Shown: positions 18,500 to 25,812 of the stretch, in pieces
How positions within the stretch are numbered: the first letter of the stretch is position 1
How the letters are laid out: every line of letters begins with the position of its first letter
Virus record (IMG/VR): IMGVR_UViG_3300013006_000006
Coordinates: 1-33,073 of that record
Length of the DNA: 33,073 nucleotides
Reading direction: 5' to 3' (one strand)
DNA from: a virus
Made by a program: the position numbers and the translations under genes
Notes under the pieces: generated by a model
Seen by the model: the letters and a program-made list of their open reading frames with translations, nothing else
Told to the model about the DNA's origin: nothing
The model's database searches: none

Positions 18500-19570
18500 T
18501 CAGGACTTCAGGTCGGCGACATACACCGCAGCCAGCGGGGCAGTTAGTGCAATCGCGCTGTTATCCGTCACGCTACCACGGATGCGACGGTTCCACGGAT
18601 CGTCCAGCGTCTCCACGGTCATGTCCTCGTAGGCGAAGATGCTGACCGTCGAGAAGGACGGGCCTTCGTTACCGATCATGCCACCGGGACGGCTCACGAA
18701 CGCGATGCCGGGGGCAGACTCGTCGCCATAGAAGAACCCAGTCGCCTTGGTTGAACCCTTGCGGTTCGACACGCGCACGGTGTCATCCACCACGACATTC
18801 ACTCCGAACATCTGCGACGGGAGGCCGTAGGTAGCAAACTGCGCGTCACCCTGAAGGAAGTTCAGAGCAGCGGGGTAGTTCTTCACATAATCGCGAACAC
18901 CCTCGGTGCTAGCGATCAGGCGAGCCGTGACGGGATTCATCACCGCGCAAATGTCAGTCGGGCTGACAGCCGCGTTGGTGGACTGCACAATCTTCTCGCA
19001 CGCCGCACGGAACAGAGCCTGCACGCCATCGGCAAGCACGCCGCTGCCGAGGATGTTGTCATTCACCAAAGCCGTAGCCGTGGTGTAGTGACCAGCCATG
19101 TTCGATGCCGAGTACGAGGTGTATCGCATCGCCGAGTCGTATGAGGTGTTGGTGCTGATCAGGCTCGCCGCGCGGTAGCCACGGTGAGTCATCATCTTCG
19201 CAGCCGCGATGCGAGCGTGCGAAGCCACGATGTCCCATTGCGCCTGCCGAGCAGTCTCCTGCGGGATGCTGAAGGAAGACTGGTAGCGAGCGCAGCCGTA
19301 AGCCACGAAGTCAAAGTCGCTGTTGATGCCCGTAGGACGATCCTCGCCGAGCGGCCAGATATTGTCCTGCGTCTGCACTACGCGAGCAGTCTCCTCTTCG
19401 TCAATCCGCAGAAAGTATCCGGCCATTTGCTGGACGGGAACCAACTGCGCGTAGCGCGTGATGGCGAACTTGTTGGGGCTGCGAGTGAACTCAATCTGGA
19501 TCTGCCCAGTTGCGGCAGAGAAGGTGGGGACGAAGGTATTCAGACCTCCACCGGGTGCGACTTCAGTCAT
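18500..19570 (-). CDS. Major capsid protein, 356 aa
   Basis: A 356-residue protein of HK97-like capsid size, after the protease/scaffold and decoration genes. Strong ribosome binding site (AAGGAGA) and ATG at 19570. It begins MTEVAPGGGLNTFVPTF, whose motif GGGLNTFVP recurs exactly in the protease/scaffold. Body features include YQSSFSIPQETARQAQWDIV, an alpha-helical spine (SHARIAAAKMMTHRGYRAAS), and DICAVMNPVTARLIASTEGV. The end is EDMTVETLDDPWNRR. It lacks a long delta domain, consistent with a separate scaffold. Abundant expression is expected and a terminator follows. Confidence 0.85.
   Translation of the reverse strand: MTEVAPGGGLNTFVPTFSAATGQIQIEFTRSPNKFAITRYAQLVPVQQMAGYFLRIDEEETARVVQTQDNIWPLGEDRPTGINSDFDFVAYGCARYQSSFSIPQETARQAQWDIVASHARIAAAKMMTHRGYRAASLISTNTSYDSAMRYTSYSASNMAGHYTTATALVNDNILGSGVLADGVQALFRAACEKIVQSTNAAVSPTDICAVMNPVTARLIASTEGVRDYVKNYPAALNFLQGDAQFATYGLPSQMFGVNVVVDDTVRVSNRKGSTKATGFFYGDESAPGIAFVSRPGGMIGNEGPSFSTVSIFAYEDMTVETLDDPWNRRIRGSVTDNSAIALTAPLAAVYVADLKS
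19526..19552 (-). other. Motif GGGLNTFVP at the capsid N-terminus
   Basis: Codons GGT GGA GGT CTG AAT ACC, then TTC GTC CCC, encode residues 7-15 of the major capsid protein. The amino acids equal those at 183-191 of the protease/scaffold. Confidence 0.9.
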
Positions 19571-19595
19571 TGATCATTTCTCCTTGTTAGTTGTT

Positions 19596-20036
19596 TTAGA
19601 GAGTGGTGGGGTAGTAAATCATTCCACCATTCTTCACGATGCGAATGATTCGGCCGGACGCGCCTGCTTCCAGAGCCACATAGCCCTGATAGCGGAATAC
19701 GGCTCCGCCAGTCACGACCGCCGTGATTGCCTTGCCGTCCGTGTCAGCCTGCACGCGACTACCGCGCGCAACTGCACCGCCGCATTGCACAAGAACCACA
19801 TCGCCACCCTGAAGGGTGATCGGCTCGCCATCAAGCGCGTGCGTGCCGTCGCTCGTATCAAAGCGACGGGTGCTGCCATCGGTCACGCCGATCACATTGT
19901 CAGCCGCGCTGTCAACCTGCACGCCCGTGTTGTCATCGGTGTTGGCAGTCGGGCCAGTCGCATCGACCTTGATGAAGCGGTACGCATAGACCGTGCCGCC
20001 TGCGATAAGTGCTGGAGTGTCAGAGAAAGATCCCAT
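19596..20036 (-). CDS. Head decoration (capsid cement) protein, 146 aa
   Basis: All-beta protein between scaffold and capsid genes, where lambda gpD-like or DUF2190-type cement proteins lie. GGTVYAYRFIKVDATGPTAN, NVIGVTDGSTRRFDTSDG, EPITLQGGDVVLVQCGGAV and SRVQADTDGKAITAVV are typical of the trimeric beta-tulip decoration fold. ATG at 20036 follows AAAGGA. It probably binds the capsid surface at threefold sites. The assignment rests on layout and composition. Confidence 0.75.
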   Translation of the reverse strand: MGSFSDTPALIAGGTVYAYRFIKVDATGPTANTDDNTGVQVDSAADNVIGVTDGSTRRFDTSDGTHALDGEPITLQGGDVVLVQCGGAVARGSRVQADTDGKAITAVVTGGAVFRYQGYVALEAGASGRIIRIVKNGGMIYYPTTL

Positions 20037-20054
20037 TGTCTTGTGTCCTTTCGA

Positions 20055-21314
20055 TTAGGCCTTCTGGCCCGTGTACTTTGCGAACAGTTGCTTGAACTTG
20101 GCGAGATCGCCAGCGGCCTCCTGCACCGCACGCGCGGTAGCAGCCTTCACATCCATGCTCTCGCGACCTTCATCGGTCACGGTGTGCTGCGCCACGGTCG
20201 GAACATTCAGCGGCAGGCGGGCCATCGTGGCCTTCCAGAACGCGATCTTCGCGCCGGGGTTGGCAGCGTCCGACAGTTCCTCCACCATGCTGTTGCGGAA
20301 CTTGCCACAGCGGTAGCCGTCGCGGATCATGGAATCGACTTCCTTGCCGAACCGCTCCAACTTCAGTTGCTTCTCAAGTTCCTGCACGCGAGCGAACAGA
20401 GCCTTCGTGGACTTGTCACCCTTGCTCATCTTGGCCTTTCCGCCGTAGGCGGCTTCCATCTCTTCGTCCTCTTCCTCTTCCTCGCCCTGATGCGAGCCGA
20501 TATCGACATGCACGCCGTCGGCGAAGTTCTCTTCGTCCTCGTCGCCGTCCATTGGGCCAGCGAACTCCATGCCCTCGGCGGCCATCGCCTCGGCATCGGC
20601 CTCCTCGGCCATCTTGTCCTCGTCCTCGTCAACCGCGCACTCCATAGCGGCAGCAGCCTCAAGAGCCTTCTTGGCCTCCTCGTCGGCTTCCATCTTCTTC
20701 TTCATCTGCTTTGGCATGTTCTTCCTTTTGGTTCCTGCGGACGGGACGAAGGTGTTAAGTCCTCCGCCGACGCCAATTTCATCAAACTTTTCCTTGGAGT
20801 CAATAGAAACGCGCACCACTCCAAGCGGACGCTCAAAGACCACCTTTGAGCCGTTCTTCGTGAATCGTGTATCCGGCAGCGGCCTGCGTGGCGTGTCGCG
20901 CCCGAGCAGAGCCACCTCCGACAGATGATTGTCCTTCCAAATCTCCGCGCTGCGGCGAGGGAATGCGTTGGTCGCCAGCAGCGAATCGAACGCCTCCTTC
21001 GGCATCTCGACATCGCCGACCACATAGGCAACGCCGTTGCGCTCTTCGTAGCGGACGCTGGTGATGTCGCCGACCGCCTCGGGCCGCGTGGCCTTGCCGT
21101 CCTTCTCGTGTTCGATGACGAGTTTGGGACGCGAGCCGCGCTGGATGAACTTCCCGGTGCGTGAAACGATGTCGCGCACCTTGCGATTGTCGTACCCCTG
21201 CATGGCCTCGTCATCGTCCGAGTCGATGGACGGATCGAAGCCCATGAACAACTCAAGATTCTTGATGCGAACCTTGCCTTCTTCGGTCTTCTCGACGGTG
21301 TGGGATGCTGGCAT
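20055..21314 (-). CDS. Head maturation protease fused to scaffold, 419 aa
   Basis: ATG at 21314 is preferred to an upstream in-frame TTG because it follows the previous stop by two bases. Residues 1-182 look like a phage prohead serine protease: PKLVIEHEKDG (likely catalytic His69), then a strand-rich core, and FPRRSAEIWKDNHLSEVALL with Ser122, followed by GRDTPRRPLPD. Residues 183-191, GGGLNTFVP, recur at the capsid N-terminus. The remainder is scaffold-like: Lys/Glu-rich helices, a very acidic stretch with long Glu/Asp runs (about 230-290), and a C-terminal helix AKFKQLFAKYTGQKA. Lambda C/Nu3 or Mu I/Z give similar protease-scaffold units. The capsid and decoration genes follow. Confidence 0.8.
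   Translation of the reverse strand: MPASHTVEKTEEGKVRIKNLELFMGFDPSIDSDDDEAMQGYDNRKVRDIVSRTGKFIQRGSRPKLVIEHEKDGKATRPEAVGDITSVRYEERNGVAYVVGDVEMPKEAFDSLLATNAFPRRSAEIWKDNHLSEVALLGRDTPRRPLPDTRFTKNGSKVVFERPLGVVRVSIDSKEKFDEIGVGGGLNTFVPSAGTKRKNMPKQMKKKMEADEEAKKALEAAAAMECAVDEDEDKMAEEADAEAMAAEGMEFAGPMDGDEDEENFADGVHVDIGSHQGEEEEEDEEMEAAYGGKAKMSKGDKSTKALFARVQELEKQLKLERFGKEVDSMIRDGYRCGKFRNSMVEELSDAANPGAKIAFWKATMARLPLNVPTVAQHTVTDEGRESMDVKAATARAVQEAAGDLAKFKQLFAKYTGQKA
20742..20768 (-). other. Motif GGGLNTFVP at the protease/scaffold boundary
   Basis: Codons GGC GGA GGA CTT AAC ACC, then TTC GTC CCG, encode residues 183-191. The same nine residues lie at 7-15 of the capsid protein with five silent codon differences. 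See the finding on this motif. Confidence 0.9.
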
Positions 21315-21316
21315 GG

Positions 21317-22186
21317 TTATGCCCAAGTGAGACTCCAAAGGCAAACGCTTCCGGCTGGCGAGCGAGTCAACTTGAACACATCCGAGAAGTCGCTATCAAA
21401 CTTGCCACCCTTTTCTATCGCCTTTGCAATTGCCGAGTGATATCCGCTGACATCGGTTCCGGTGTTGTTTGCATAGAGACACGATCCGGGCTGTCGCGTG
21501 ATCGCAAACCGCTCGGGCTGGCCGGGGCGGGAGAAAGACAGAACACCAGCAGCCCGAGCAACCGCTGACCATCCCTTGTCCTCCCAAAACACAGCGTCAT
21601 CCTCAAAGATCCTCTGCATCTTGTTCATTGCGTTTACTGCTTCGTCGGTGTTCCGAGCGTAGTTGGAAATCCAGTTTCGCAAGTGCCCCAACTCTTGCGA
21701 AGTCATTCGTCGCTCAAACCGCTCCTTGCGGCCCTTGCCGAAGTAGAAGCGATCCTCGACCTTGAAGGTCGCCTTCGCGCCGGGGCGAGAGAACTTGAAC
21801 TTCAACGCGCTTTCCATTGCCGACTTCGTGATGCGATATAGTTCTTCCTTGCTTGCGTTGGGGAACTGCTTTTTCGCCTGCGCTTCAATCTTGTTCCATG
21901 CCTCCATCATCTTTGCGATGGCTTCAGGAGTAGTCATATCACCTGCCGCCATCATGTCCTTCGCGCCGGGGCGAGAGAAGCGATGTGTTTCGGCATATCG
22001 CTTCAACTCATCCACGCTGCCATCCTTGACTTTTGTTGATGCCCCACCGGGTGCAGAGCGATAAAGAGTTCCTTTGCGAGTTCTCTCGTCTACCACAATC
22101 GAAAACTTTGTTCCATTGATGGTTGCTTCCCATCCCTCGGAAAAATCTCCCCAGCCTTGCGATTGCGTATGCGACCAATTAGCCAT
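21317..22186 (-). CDS. Repeat-bearing head-cluster protein of unknown role (B), 289 aa
   Basis: Unrecognised. Alternates helical blocks with a short motif: HRFSRPGAKDM (69-78), KFSRPGAKATF (131-141), EDRFYFGKGRKERFER (144-159) and SFSRPGQPERFA (217-228). The N-terminal 65 residues form a small beta domain (WEATINGTKFSIVVDERTRK, then GTLYRSAPGG). The C-terminal 50 residues have two cysteines. It is somewhat A+T-richer than its neighbours. Two start-to-stop overlaps link it to the sister protein (22179..22922) and the protease. The same motif class occurs in that sister and, in partial form, near the portal C-terminus. It may be an ejected or internal head protein, but this is inference. Confidence 0.7.
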   Translation of the reverse strand: MANWSHTQSQGWGDFSEGWEATINGTKFSIVVDERTRKGTLYRSAPGGASTKVKDGSVDELKRYAETHRFSRPGAKDMMAAGDMTTPEAIAKMMEAWNKIEAQAKKQFPNASKEELYRITKSAMESALKFKFSRPGAKATFKVEDRFYFGKGRKERFERRMTSQELGHLRNWISNYARNTDEAVNAMNKMQRIFEDDAVFWEDKGWSAVARAAGVLSFSRPGQPERFAITRQPGSCLYANNTGTDVSGYHSAIAKAIEKGGKFDSDFSDVFKLTRSPAGSVCLWSLTWA

Positions 22187-22922
22187 TCTTCACCTCCACA
22201 TTCCAGTAGCGTCCGATGGACTGCACCGGAGCCGTTGCGCTGTAGCCGTGGCTCGCCACGCGGCGAGCGAAGTTCCCAGCCACATCGCCGTCCTCAAACG
22301 AAATGACCAGCGAACCGCCGCCTGTCTCGACCGCACGCCATCCGCCCTCGGGCATCTGCTTCTCGGAGAGCAACTTGCCGAGCATGGGCGAGGACGAAGC
22401 CTCCGCAAACCCCTTGCGGTCAAGGCTCGACGCATCGAACCGCTCGGGCTGGCCGGGGCGGGAGGAGCGATGCCAAGGAGCCTGTGGGACAGAAGTTCCA
22501 AGGTGCTTGCGTTCAAACCGAAGCATCTTGAGATACCGCGCTGCTCGCTCATCTCCCATATTTGCTGCCGCCTGCAAAATGGGTTCGATCTTGTTCAACT
22601 GCTGCTCGTTTCCTGATTGAATATCCGAGATGCGGATTTTGGCGGCTTCTTCAATTGCTCCAAACTGCTCGGGCTGGCCGGAGCGGGAAAAAACTCCCAT
22701 CGCACGCGCCTGCTGAATGAGTTTGTTCAATTCCTTTGCTTGTTCCGCAGACAACCCTCCGCGATTCCGTTCCTTGACTAGATCGCTCAAGATTGCGCTT
22801 GCCTCATCATCTCCATCTGCGATATACGCAGACGCATCTGAAAGCATTGAATCGACGCGCCCAAACCGCTCGGGCTGGCCGTGCTTGCCGAAGTAGAACC
22901 GATCTTCTGTCTTGTTGGTCAT
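22179..22922 (-). CDS. Repeat-bearing head-cluster protein of unknown role (A), 247 aa
   Basis: Unrecognised. Motif copies: FYFGKHGQPERFGR (9-22), FSRSGQPEQFG (78-88) and SSRPGQPERFD (153-163), separated by helical blocks of 50-65 residues. The C-terminal 70 residues are a compact alpha/beta domain (GGGSLVISFEDGDVAGNFAR, then IGRYWNVEVKNG). No membrane segment or enzyme signature. ATGA overlap with the MuF-type gene suggests that it is made with it. Placed between MuF and the protease, where some phages carry polyvalent or ejected effector genes. Not proven. Confidence 0.7.
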   Translation of the reverse strand: MTNKTEDRFYFGKHGQPERFGRVDSMLSDASAYIADGDDEASAILSDLVKERNRGGLSAEQAKELNKLIQQARAMGVFSRSGQPEQFGAIEEAAKIRISDIQSGNEQQLNKIEPILQAAANMGDERAARYLKMLRFERKHLGTSVPQAPWHRSSRPGQPERFDASSLDRKGFAEASSSPMLGKLLSEKQMPEGGWRAVETGGGSLVISFEDGDVAGNFARRVASHGYSATAPVQSIGRYWNVEVKNG

Positions 22923-23971
22923 CGTTTGAATCCGGGGTCGGGGTAGTCGCCTCTGTCGATGATGCGTTGCCGGGTTGCGTTATACCGTGCCAACGCAGCA
23001 CGATCTAGAGTTTCGTCCTTGCGGATGAAGCCCATGCTCTTGGCCTCATCGAAGGTGACAGGCTCTAGCGAGCCTCGACAGTTGAAGCCGTTGGGCGGCA
23101 CAAGCCCCTGCGAGCGCATGTCAGCCGCCGTCGCTATGTAGCCGTCCATCTGCCAATGGCTACCGGGGTTCTTGCTCTTGCCCTTTGGGCGGTACACGCC
23201 GCCGGGTGCGCCTCGCGTCCGGCTATCGTGAATCTCGACCAGCCGCACAAGTGGCGCCCATCGCGCAACCGTTGGGCTGTCCATCGTTTCGGCGGTCGCT
23301 TCGTTGTAGGCCGTGGCCGTGTTCGTGCGGTAGACCGTCTCTAGACGAGCCGAGGTCATGCCGATGATGCCTTCGACTTGCGCCCTGCGGATGAACGCAG
23401 ACAGGCTCCCAGTCTTGAGTCCCTTCGGAATGGACTGGTTCACCATGCTCTGCGCGATCAGGTCGCGGATGCGGCGAGCCTGCGCGTCGGTCGCGCCCTT
23501 GACTCGGAACGATCCGGACAGCGTGTCTTGCAGGGCTTGCAGCCGCTTGGTCAGGTCGCGGATTGCTTCCCGGCTCTCGGCCTTGGCGATGCGCTCGGCC
23601 AGTCGTCGCATCTTCGCCCGGATACGGCGAACCTCTAACCATGAGCGCGGGATGCGGTTCCTGAACGCCTGCACAGCCTTCCAGTACGCGCCGGGGCCGA
23701 AGCCTGCCGACGCAGCCGCGAATGTCTCCGGACGCTCTTCCGGCCATTCTCCGGCCTCCCAGTCGTTCCCCTGCTCCTTGGTGGCCGCGTGGGCCTGCGC
23801 TGCGCCCGCTAGAGCCGTCAGAGTCATCACCTGCCCCAGAACCTCGCCGTACCGCTCCCACGCCTCGGCGGCATCCTCTGGCTCGTCGCGCACCTGCGCG
23901 GCTAGGGCCGCGAGATACCACCGCCGGACATCGGCAAGCCCGCGCCTGTAGATGCGCTCAAACTCCGTCAC
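22919..23971 (-). CDS. MuF-type minor head protein (SPP1 gp7 family), 350 aa
   Basis: GTG start at 23971 overlaps the portal stop (GTGA). The N-terminal half is helical with many Ala/Glu. The C-terminal half has the MuF core: GMTSARLETVYRTNTATAYN, EIHDSRTRGAPGGVYRPK, HWQMDGYIATAADMR and GLVPPNGFNCRGSLEPVTFD. The Tyr-Arg-Thr-Asn and Cys-Arg positions are conserved in this family. MuF proteins attach to the portal and help head assembly or DNA ejection. They follow the portal gene in Mu, SPP1 and related phages, as here. Confidence 0.85.
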   Translation of the reverse strand: MTEFERIYRRGLADVRRWYLAALAAQVRDEPEDAAEAWERYGEVLGQVMTLTALAGAAQAHAATKEQGNDWEAGEWPEERPETFAAASAGFGPGAYWKAVQAFRNRIPRSWLEVRRIRAKMRRLAERIAKAESREAIRDLTKRLQALQDTLSGSFRVKGATDAQARRIRDLIAQSMVNQSIPKGLKTGSLSAFIRRAQVEGIIGMTSARLETVYRTNTATAYNEATAETMDSPTVARWAPLVRLVEIHDSRTRGAPGGVYRPKGKSKNPGSHWQMDGYIATAADMRSQGLVPPNGFNCRGSLEPVTFDEAKSMGFIRKDETLDRAALARYNATRQRIIDRGDYPDPGFKR

Positions 23972-25812
23972 TTGCTACGGCGGGCCTTGGACTTGCTGGC
24001 CTTGGTCTTGCTGCCGCGCTTCTCGCTCTCGTCCTTGCCCTCGGCGCGATCCAGTTCAGCAGCCTTCTTCTTGGCCCACGACTTGCCCGCGTCGCCGCCC
24101 CAAAGCAGCCACGCGATGTAGCCCGCGCTGTCCTCGCCCCAGCCCTCGCCCTGCTTGTCCACTTCGTGCCGTGCGAAGTACGAGTTCATGCGGCGCACCG
24201 TTGACGGCGAGAGCGTCTTGCGGTTCGACAGGTCGCGTGCGCGAGCCACGCCGACTTCCGTGCCGCCCCTGCCGTGCTTGCGGCGCAGTTCAAGCCCACG
24301 GGCAGCGGCCTCGGCTGCGCCCTTGGGCGGGGTCAGGTCAACATCGGATAGCGCGAAGCGATCCTTGCTGAACGGCTCTGCGTCGCCCTCCGGGCCTGCG
24401 TCACCCGGCTCGTCGCCCATCGGTCGGACATCAAGCGGAGGCATTCCGCCACCGCCCATGCCGCCCTCGGACGGAGCCTGAAGCACCATCTCGTCATCCT
24501 CCGGCTCGGCAAGGCCCAACACCTTGCGTGCCTCGCGCTCGCTGACGCGGCCACCCAACTTGGTGAACGCCTCAATCGCCTTCATGTACTCATCCGGGTT
24601 CGGCTTGCTCACGCTGAATGAGAACGAAGGCGGCACGGCATCGTCGCCGAAGTTCATGCGGAACAGCGGCGTGACGATTTCGCGCGTGATGGTTTCTGCC
24701 AGCGCGTTGGCGATGTAGGTGACTTGACGGTTGAGCGTCTGCGCGTGCTGATCGCCGATGCTTGAGCCAAGGCCGCTCGACACAGCCTGCGAAGTGCCAG
24801 TCTGGCCGAGGATGACTTCCTTGATGTTCTCCGTCAGGTACTCAACCATCTTGGCGAACGCTTCTGCGTTGCCGCCGTTCGGCTCCATGATGTTGATGCC
24901 GAAGCCCGCGTCGCTGCCGTCGGCGTTCTTCGGAATCAGCACCGACACATCGCCGAGCAAGTTCTGCATGGCCGATTCCATGTCAGCCTTCGCGGCCTCA
25001 TTGCCCACGGGGTAGTTGCCCACGCGGATGCCCATGCTGTATCGCTCAATGTAGGTAGCCCAGTTCTGTAGTGCGGCCTGCTTCAGCGACCAGTAGTACC
25101 AGACCAGATCGCGCATGCCGCGACCGAGGTAGGCGTTTTCGGCATCGTATATTTCGTCGAAGTCCACCCCTTGCTGCTGGTAGGTGTGCAGCGCGATGGT
25201 CGCTCGCTGCTGATCGTCTAGCGGCAGAACGCGGCTATCCCATCCGATGACCGTGCCATTGATCTTGTCCGTGTCTGGGGCTGCGCCGCCGATGGTCTGC
25301 GTGTAGTAGCGCGGGCCGACCTTCAGGCCCAACTGGCCGAGTTCGGTCATGGTCAGGCTGTCGCCGTGGATCGGCATCCAGTCTCGGATGTAGATCGTTT
25401 CGCCCTGCTTGCCGAACACCATGTTCACAGCCGACCGCCCGTACCAGAGCGCGTCGAGCAGATGGCGCATCATGTCCGTGAAGCGTGGGGTGTTCTTCAG
25501 CAGTTTCTCCACGAACGCGGCCTGCTCCGTGGCTTGCTCGTCGCCCTGCATGTCGGCAGGAACCTGAACCGCCCACTCGGCGCACGCGACCGAGAGTTGC
25601 AGCATGACGAGCGGCCCCATGATGTCGGGGTCGTATCGCATCTGCCGCTGAAGGTTTCGATCCTTGCGGAACGCCAGCGAGCCTTGACGGAGGATCTTGT
25701 TGACGGAGAGGTAGTACGACCTCTGCATCTCGACCGGGGTGACGAGTGCTTGGAACACGGGAGCCACTCGGATCTGGTCGCCGCCTTGGGTCTGGTTTGC
25801 GTCGCTTGGCAT
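23968..25812 (-). CDS. Mu gp29-type portal protein with extra C-terminal module, 614 aa
   Basis: ATG at 25812 overlaps the terminase stop (TAATG). Residues about 20-470 match the DUF935/Mu gp29 portal: SYYLSVNKILRQGSLAFRKD, QRQMRYDPDIMGPLVMLQLS, then YIERYSMGIRVGNYPVG, and EVILGQTGTSQAVSSGLGSS. Portals form a 12-subunit ring at the vertex through which DNA passes. Residues 486-614 are an added module: KGAAEAAARGLELRRKHGRG, VRRMNSYFARHEVD and GYIAWLLWGGDAGKSWA, then a Lys/Arg/Ser-rich tail. Such modules recur in phage head genes, but I do not know the function. A motif-like FSKDRF sits at 481-486. Confidence 0.85.
   Translation of the reverse strand: MPSDANQTQGGDQIRVAPVFQALVTPVEMQRSYYLSVNKILRQGSLAFRKDRNLQRQMRYDPDIMGPLVMLQLSVACAEWAVQVPADMQGDEQATEQAAFVEKLLKNTPRFTDMMRHLLDALWYGRSAVNMVFGKQGETIYIRDWMPIHGDSLTMTELGQLGLKVGPRYYTQTIGGAAPDTDKINGTVIGWDSRVLPLDDQQRATIALHTYQQQGVDFDEIYDAENAYLGRGMRDLVWYYWSLKQAALQNWATYIERYSMGIRVGNYPVGNEAAKADMESAMQNLLGDVSVLIPKNADGSDAGFGINIMEPNGGNAEAFAKMVEYLTENIKEVILGQTGTSQAVSSGLGSSIGDQHAQTLNRQVTYIANALAETITREIVTPLFRMNFGDDAVPPSFSFSVSKPNPDEYMKAIEAFTKLGGRVSEREARKVLGLAEPEDDEMVLQAPSEGGMGGGGMPPLDVRPMGDEPGDAGPEGDAEPFSKDRFALSDVDLTPPKGAAEAAARGLELRRKHGRGGTEVGVARARDLSNRKTLSPSTVRRMNSYFARHEVDKQGEGWGEDSAGYIAWLLWGGDAGKSWAKKKAAELDRAEGKDESEKRGSKTKASKSKARRSK

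Follow-up and report, generated by a model that had tools for sequence, protein, structure and literature searches.

In phage Mu, gpI consists of an N-terminal enzyme followed by scaffold, gpZ starts inside gpI, and the gene adjoins that of the capsid protein. The prohead proteases gp245 of SPN3US and gp21 of T4 act at very short sites, with a known consensus that places Glu before the cut. Cleavage by gp245 takes place in the enzyme itself and in the N-terminal propeptides of head proteins (PMC10052503). Herpesvirus assemblin has an ordered protease and a disordered scaffold part, and the scaffold is also made separately (PMC13030845). In phage 80alpha the capsid protein (CP) and the scaffold (SP) share a terminal motif that is cut by one protease, the host enzyme Prp; cleavage itself is dispensable, and the scaffold peptide is required (PMC5744158).

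We analysed a window consisting of a virus record of 33,073 bases, whose minus strand encodes a Mu-like head module. The order of the module is large terminase, portal, Mu-F-like protein, two small proteins, protease/scaffold, cement-like protein, capsid protein, and Mu gp36-like and neck proteins. Residues 7-15 of the capsid protein read GGGLNTFVP, and so do residues 183-191 of the protease/scaffold. This resembles 80alpha in that one short peptide is present near the capsid N-terminus and in a scaffold-type protein, with a role in assembly that is here a probable one. The peptides themselves differ: those of 80alpha are KLKFNLQFFA in SP and KLKLNLQHFA in CP, and GGGLNTFVP does not match the Prp recognition sequence. 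Furthermore, both 80alpha copies are N-terminal and cut by a host protease, whereas the second copy of GGGLNTFVP is situated between the fold of a phage protease and the scaffold, and its cleavage is putative.

The two proteins that carry the peptide

The 356-amino-acid protein encoded at 18500-19570 (minus strand) matched phrog_29 (E=0.006), and members of its family matched phrog_1005, 'major head protein', with E-values down to 2.7e-12. A Foldseek search with its AF2 model (pTM 0.77) gave 338 matches at E<=0.001, among them the HK97-fold capsids BB3626, T5 and the HK97 head. From the model and these matches the protein is classed as an HK97-fold major capsid protein. Residues 1-26, which include the motif, had pLDDT values below 50 and are predicted to be unstructured in the monomer; the remainder was modelled in the HK97 fold. 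Between the two motif carriers, and in this respect different from the arrangement in Mu, lies a gene for a cement- or decoration-like protein (19596-20036, minus strand) that lacks the motif. This protein matched phrog_673 (E=9.7e-14), and also PF09956 at a level below the curated cut-off (E=2.5e-4).

The second carrier, identified from its open reading frame, its relatives and Foldseek matches in BFVD as a maturation protease-scaffold fusion, is 419 amino acids long and starts at an ATG at 21314 (20055-21314, minus strand). Its AF2 model has a folded domain at residues 1-139 (20898-21314), disorder at residues 140-201 (pLDDT below 50) and helices from residue 202, the first of which spans residues 202-246. 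In BFVD the folded domain matched a Gordonia phage Jumbo protein annotated as capsid maturation protease (E=2.6e-10), and prohead serine proteases, several in number, at below 1e-3; in the PDB, Foldseek found T4 gp21 (5jbl) as a weak match (E=0.43). The protease/scaffold matched no Pfam family, and a PDB sequence search gave nothing useful. The domain is described from its model as having the predicted fold of tailed-phage prohead or capsid maturation proteases (T4 gp21-like), and its identity as a protease, from fold and position, is well supported. Two residues in invariant columns of alignment A2, H69 (21108-21110) and S122 (20949-20951), were invariant in 35 sequences and are candidate catalytic residues of a putatively active enzyme; they stand in the same order as EH...S in Mu gpI, at similar spacing. 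A comparison with Mu gpI by hhalign gave a probability below 1%, with shuffled sequences scoring as well, and hhalign against PB1 ORF21 was not significant.

The predicted protease fold is followed by a disordered linker (residues 140-199, 20718-20897, minus strand) that carries the element F160-x-R162...F177 and the motif. A preliminary description of this sequence had placed the motif exactly where the protease domain ends, but the predicted fold stops near residue 139, some 40 residues earlier. The motif is the best conserved block of the linker, with a mean top-residue fraction of 0.78 compared with 0.41 over the eight residues that follow it.

The motif ends nine residues before an in-frame methionine, M200 (codon 20715-20717), which is present in 97% of alignment A2; in relatives the methionine lies 6-13 residues past the motif. 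A Shine-Dalgarno-like sequence, AAGGA (20723-20727), is located 5 nt upstream of this internal ATG, and the forms found ahead of the internal methionine are AAGGA, AAGGAGG or GAGG. Among 126 genes, Shine-Dalgarno-like sequences of at least 4 nt preceded the internal methionine in 98%, compared with 34% at other in-frame ATGs, and synonymous resampling gave an observed score of 5.33 against 4.85 expected. Codon-level proof of the internal site was considered and rejected, since Lys, Glu or Arg before the methionine already favour such DNA and the amino acids explain most of the signal. The conserved methionine, the Shine-Dalgarno-like sequence and the predicted helix together suggest that the internal ATG probably starts a free scaffold (20055-20717, minus strand), as in Mu gpI/gpZ; the nested scaffold of herpesviruses differs in arising from an internal promoter. 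The probable free scaffold begins nine residues past the motif and would therefore lack it, leaving the motif in the protease form only. The preliminary description had offered a cleavage site, a peptide that ties capsid to scaffold and a targeting tag as possible roles; the second of these accordingly needs to be changed.

Conservation and parallel change of the two copies

The capsid copy (19526-19552) is encoded as GGT GGA GGT CTG AAT ACC TTC GTC CCC and the protease-tail copy (20742-20768) as GGC GGA GGA CTT AAC ACC TTC GTC CCG, both on the minus strand. The five silent differences are exactly those listed in the preliminary description, and 5.2 would be expected if codons were drawn independently. 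In the window's clade the similarity of the capsid copy to the tail copy reaches back to E3-V4 (19564), and E179-I180 of the protease tail (to 20780) likewise resemble the capsid N-terminus. Nine residues is the longest word common to the two proteins. Shuffled pairs shared at most seven, and none of 3,000 reached a 9-mer. The sharing is beyond chance, and the presence of the motif at both reported positions is borne out. Sharing of more than five residues between other structural-module proteins of the window was confined to orfA and orfB, through a repeat of their own.

No third copy was found in the six frames of the window or in the other plus-strand ORFs of 220 related loci, where two hits first counted as 'other' proved to be in the protease frame of one frameshifted contig. 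On the single contig represented by L021 and L129, the protease and capsid genes contain frameshifted stretches in which the motif is intact in another frame; these are due to sequencing error or a decaying copy.

Relatives were found in IMG/VR only, as uncultured contigs, together with one 6.5 kb contig (L221) in a Nitrospiraceae metagenome-assembled genome. Among 84,980 genomes of bacteria and archaea nothing else matched; L221 is a weak hint of the host, and may be a stray viral contig. A tblastn search of the 50,697 phage records of INPHARED, using capsids from four clades and from the L039 lineage (described below) plus three protease-scaffolds, yielded no cultured relative, the hits at E<=10 being weak and unrelated. 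Within the collections and literature searched, the shared motif is previously undescribed.

Both copies were kept in nearly all of 125 distinct protease-capsid pairs, while the linker and flanks diverged. Agreement between the copies amounted to 8.0 of the 9 positions when both came from one genome and to 7.0 when they came from different genomes. At positions with the same residue in both copies, the codons differed in 588 of 997 cases (59%), compared with 547 expected from independent draws on each locus's own codon usage. This saturation indicates that the copies are old or convergent and that the peptide is under selection; it contradicts recent copying or gene conversion. The view that selection on the peptide, and not recent copying, accounts for the identity thus held up across the 125 pairs, with several changes common to both copies.

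These changes were followed on a tree of 72 protease-capsid pairs, built with the motif columns left out. In the LS clade Asn is replaced by Ser in both copies (capsid GGGLSTYVP, tail GGGLSTFVP). In the PG clade both copies are one residue shorter (capsid PGQANTYVP, tail PGSANTYVP), and inside this clade Phe changed to Tyr in both. Pro became Ala in both copies of L057, and Leu was lost from both in the L020/L117/L122 group. At offset -4 from the Pro, identity was 0.99 within a genome compared with 0.39 across clades. Upstream similarity of the copies depended on the clade, 81% of the LN1 group having Glu at -12; after the Pro the similarity dropped sharply. Freely varying positions were V/I at -1 and, outside the PG clade, F/Y. 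A tree-aware coupling test gave a mostly consistent direction at the key positions from fewer than six informative pairs. Coupled change of the two copies is suggestive, with too few independent events for significance.

The capsid N-arm is conserved in its entirety, including the residues upstream of the motif. Drifted capsid copies occur in L011-L014 (GGGNNAFIP) and in L070. In the lineage of L039, L041 and L218-L220 the capsid copy is degenerate (GAGMNTFTP) and the tail copy is absent. The preliminary description had proposed a search of related phages for the motif in both positions, and had stated that its absence from one protein while both genes are kept would refute the proposal. Both positions were maintained across the 125 pairs; the L039 lineage has both genes and no tail copy, and this limits the claim to the main family without removing it. 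In the main family the motif is real and conserved.

A second element in neighbouring head proteins

A shorter pattern, F-[ST]-[RK]...F, appears repeatedly: portal C-tails have it, and so do the array proteins encoded upstream, the protease tail and the capsid N-arm. This low-information sequence may be a procapsid-targeting or processing element, and its recurrence lowers confidence in GGGLNTFVP as a general protease site.

Two minus-strand genes, at 21317-22186 and 22179-22922, encode the array proteins; they lie after the gene for the Mu-F-like protein and ahead of that for the protease. The proteins consist of segments separated by a stereotyped unit, [FA]SRPG[QA][KP]xx[FM][AD]. We counted 154 distinct instances of this unit, spaced 62-184 amino acids apart; such proteins are also present in L020, L065, L077, L115, L122, L132 and L139. 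Eight such proteins were scanned against Pfam and PADLOC, and no convincing match was obtained. Their sequences give the impression of several internal head proteins strung together, each supplied with a unit for targeting or cutting.

Portal C-tails, among them those of L030, L035, L038, L060 and L080, contain an FSR/FSK element: PFSKDRFALSD in the window (about 24320-24365, minus strand), and ...AFSRRSWW at or near the extreme C-terminus in the LS clade. The portal element resembles the unit of the array proteins as well as FTRSPNKFA, a stretch of the capsid protein. An extra domain, RGLELRxKHGRGGTEVGVARARDL...GYIAWLLWGGDAG, is fused in the window's clade to the portal C-tail (23968-24365); in L022 and L054 it is attached N-terminally to the protease ORF. 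Portal or other head-protein tails of L101, L113 and L180 carry unrelated cargo-like segments: a stretch judged by eye to be ADP-ribosyltransferase-like in L101, and G..PGFQPGNTC in L113 and L180.

Possible roles of the shared peptide

We tentatively prefer, at a probability somewhat short of even, to regard the peptide as a site at which the maturation protease encoded by the phage itself recognises or processes its substrates, thereby freeing the enzyme from the scaffold and trimming the capsid N-arm. The preference comes from the precedents, in which a peptide found in both capsid and scaffold or protease is a processing site, and from the tail copy, which is placed like a release site. In this scheme the peptide, with the weaker similarity over about five residues upstream, would serve in two flexible regions, the protease-scaffold tail and the capsid N-arm, as one short linear recognition element. 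Within the procapsid, self-cleavage in the tail would release the enzyme from the scaffold and give a product only about 8-16 residues longer than the scaffold from the internal start. Cutting of the same sequence in the capsid N-arm would remove about 7-15 residues. Here we infer three things: that the protease fusion is active, that the internal start is in use and that the peptide is cut.

Several observations favour such processing: the persistence of both copies in spite of saturated codons, the parallel changes, and the high within-genome identity at offset -4 together with the sharp drop after the Pro. Both sites are predicted to be disordered and hence accessible. The tail copy stands after the enzyme fold and ahead of the scaffold start, as would be expected of a release site, and corresponds in position to that of herpesvirus assemblin. 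In herpesviruses, to our knowledge, the release site has no counterpart at the capsid N-terminus. The likeness to SPN3US gp245 and T4 gp21 is that of a prohead protease with a fold resemblance, weak for gp21, but the conserved core of the motif lacks Glu. Against processing, the motif is present in two proteins only; a general protease site might be expected in scaffold, portal or internal proteins too, where the F-[ST]-[RK]...F pattern recurs instead. With 9-14 conserved residues, its footprint is also long by the standards of protease sites. The conservation of the whole capsid N-arm suggests that the arm may be retained, which argues against trimming. The L039 lineage, with a capsid motif and no tail copy, also speaks against processing, as do the lack of a significant profile match to Mu gpI, the small number of coupled changes and the dispensability of cleavage in 80alpha (PMC5744158). 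Mu also differs in that no significant peptide is common to gpI and gpT.

The main rival reading, which we regard as somewhat less probable, is that the protease tail mimics the capsid N-arm: both would act as uncut strands that dock in a single receptor groove, located either on an adjacent capsid subunit or on a common scaffold or portal surface, and the tail would thereby recruit the protease-scaffold into the procapsid. We know of no documented precedent for such mimicry. A docking strand would nevertheless suit the long footprint with its shared changes of sequence and length, the conservation of the entire N-arm, and the restriction of the motif to two proteins. Its confinement to the protease form is as expected when a minor component is to be recruited, and the L039 lineage has a capsid copy alone, as if the role in the capsid were independent. 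The 80alpha scaffold peptide, too, is needed even if uncuttable (PMC5744158). However, a scaffold is already part of the protease fusion and should carry the enzyme into the procapsid, and the absence of the motif from the probable free scaffold is against a general capsid-scaffold tie. A variant that we consider unlikely combines recruitment with release: one groove would bind the N-arm strand of both capsid and fusion, place the enzyme in the shell, and free it once the N-arm replaces the tail at maturation.

Recognition of both peptides by a host factor, either a processing enzyme or a chaperone, appears improbable. It would correspond to the cutting of the peptide common to CP and SP of 80alpha by host Prp (PMC5744158), and the capsid copy is indeed near a terminus, but the motif is unlike the Prp site, the second copy is internal, and the phage apparently encodes a protease of its own. 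Coincidence, or a functionless recent duplication or gene conversion, is scarcely credible: although the genes are neighbours with only about 1.2 kb between the copies, the shuffled pairs, the independent codons and the persistence of both copies while their surroundings diverged all stand against it.

A motif that is kept and often changed alike in both proteins probably serves for recognition or cutting during shell building. It provides a specific and testable nine-residue signal for the coordination of enzyme, scaffold and capsid in a large group of uncultured phages, and the natural variants already on record (LN, LS and PG-short) could reveal whether recognition changes along with the peptide. 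Should the motif be a processing site, it would define what is specifically cut by a family of proteases recorded in metagenomes alone; should the tail mimic the N-arm, the recruitment of a maturation enzyme in this manner would be new.
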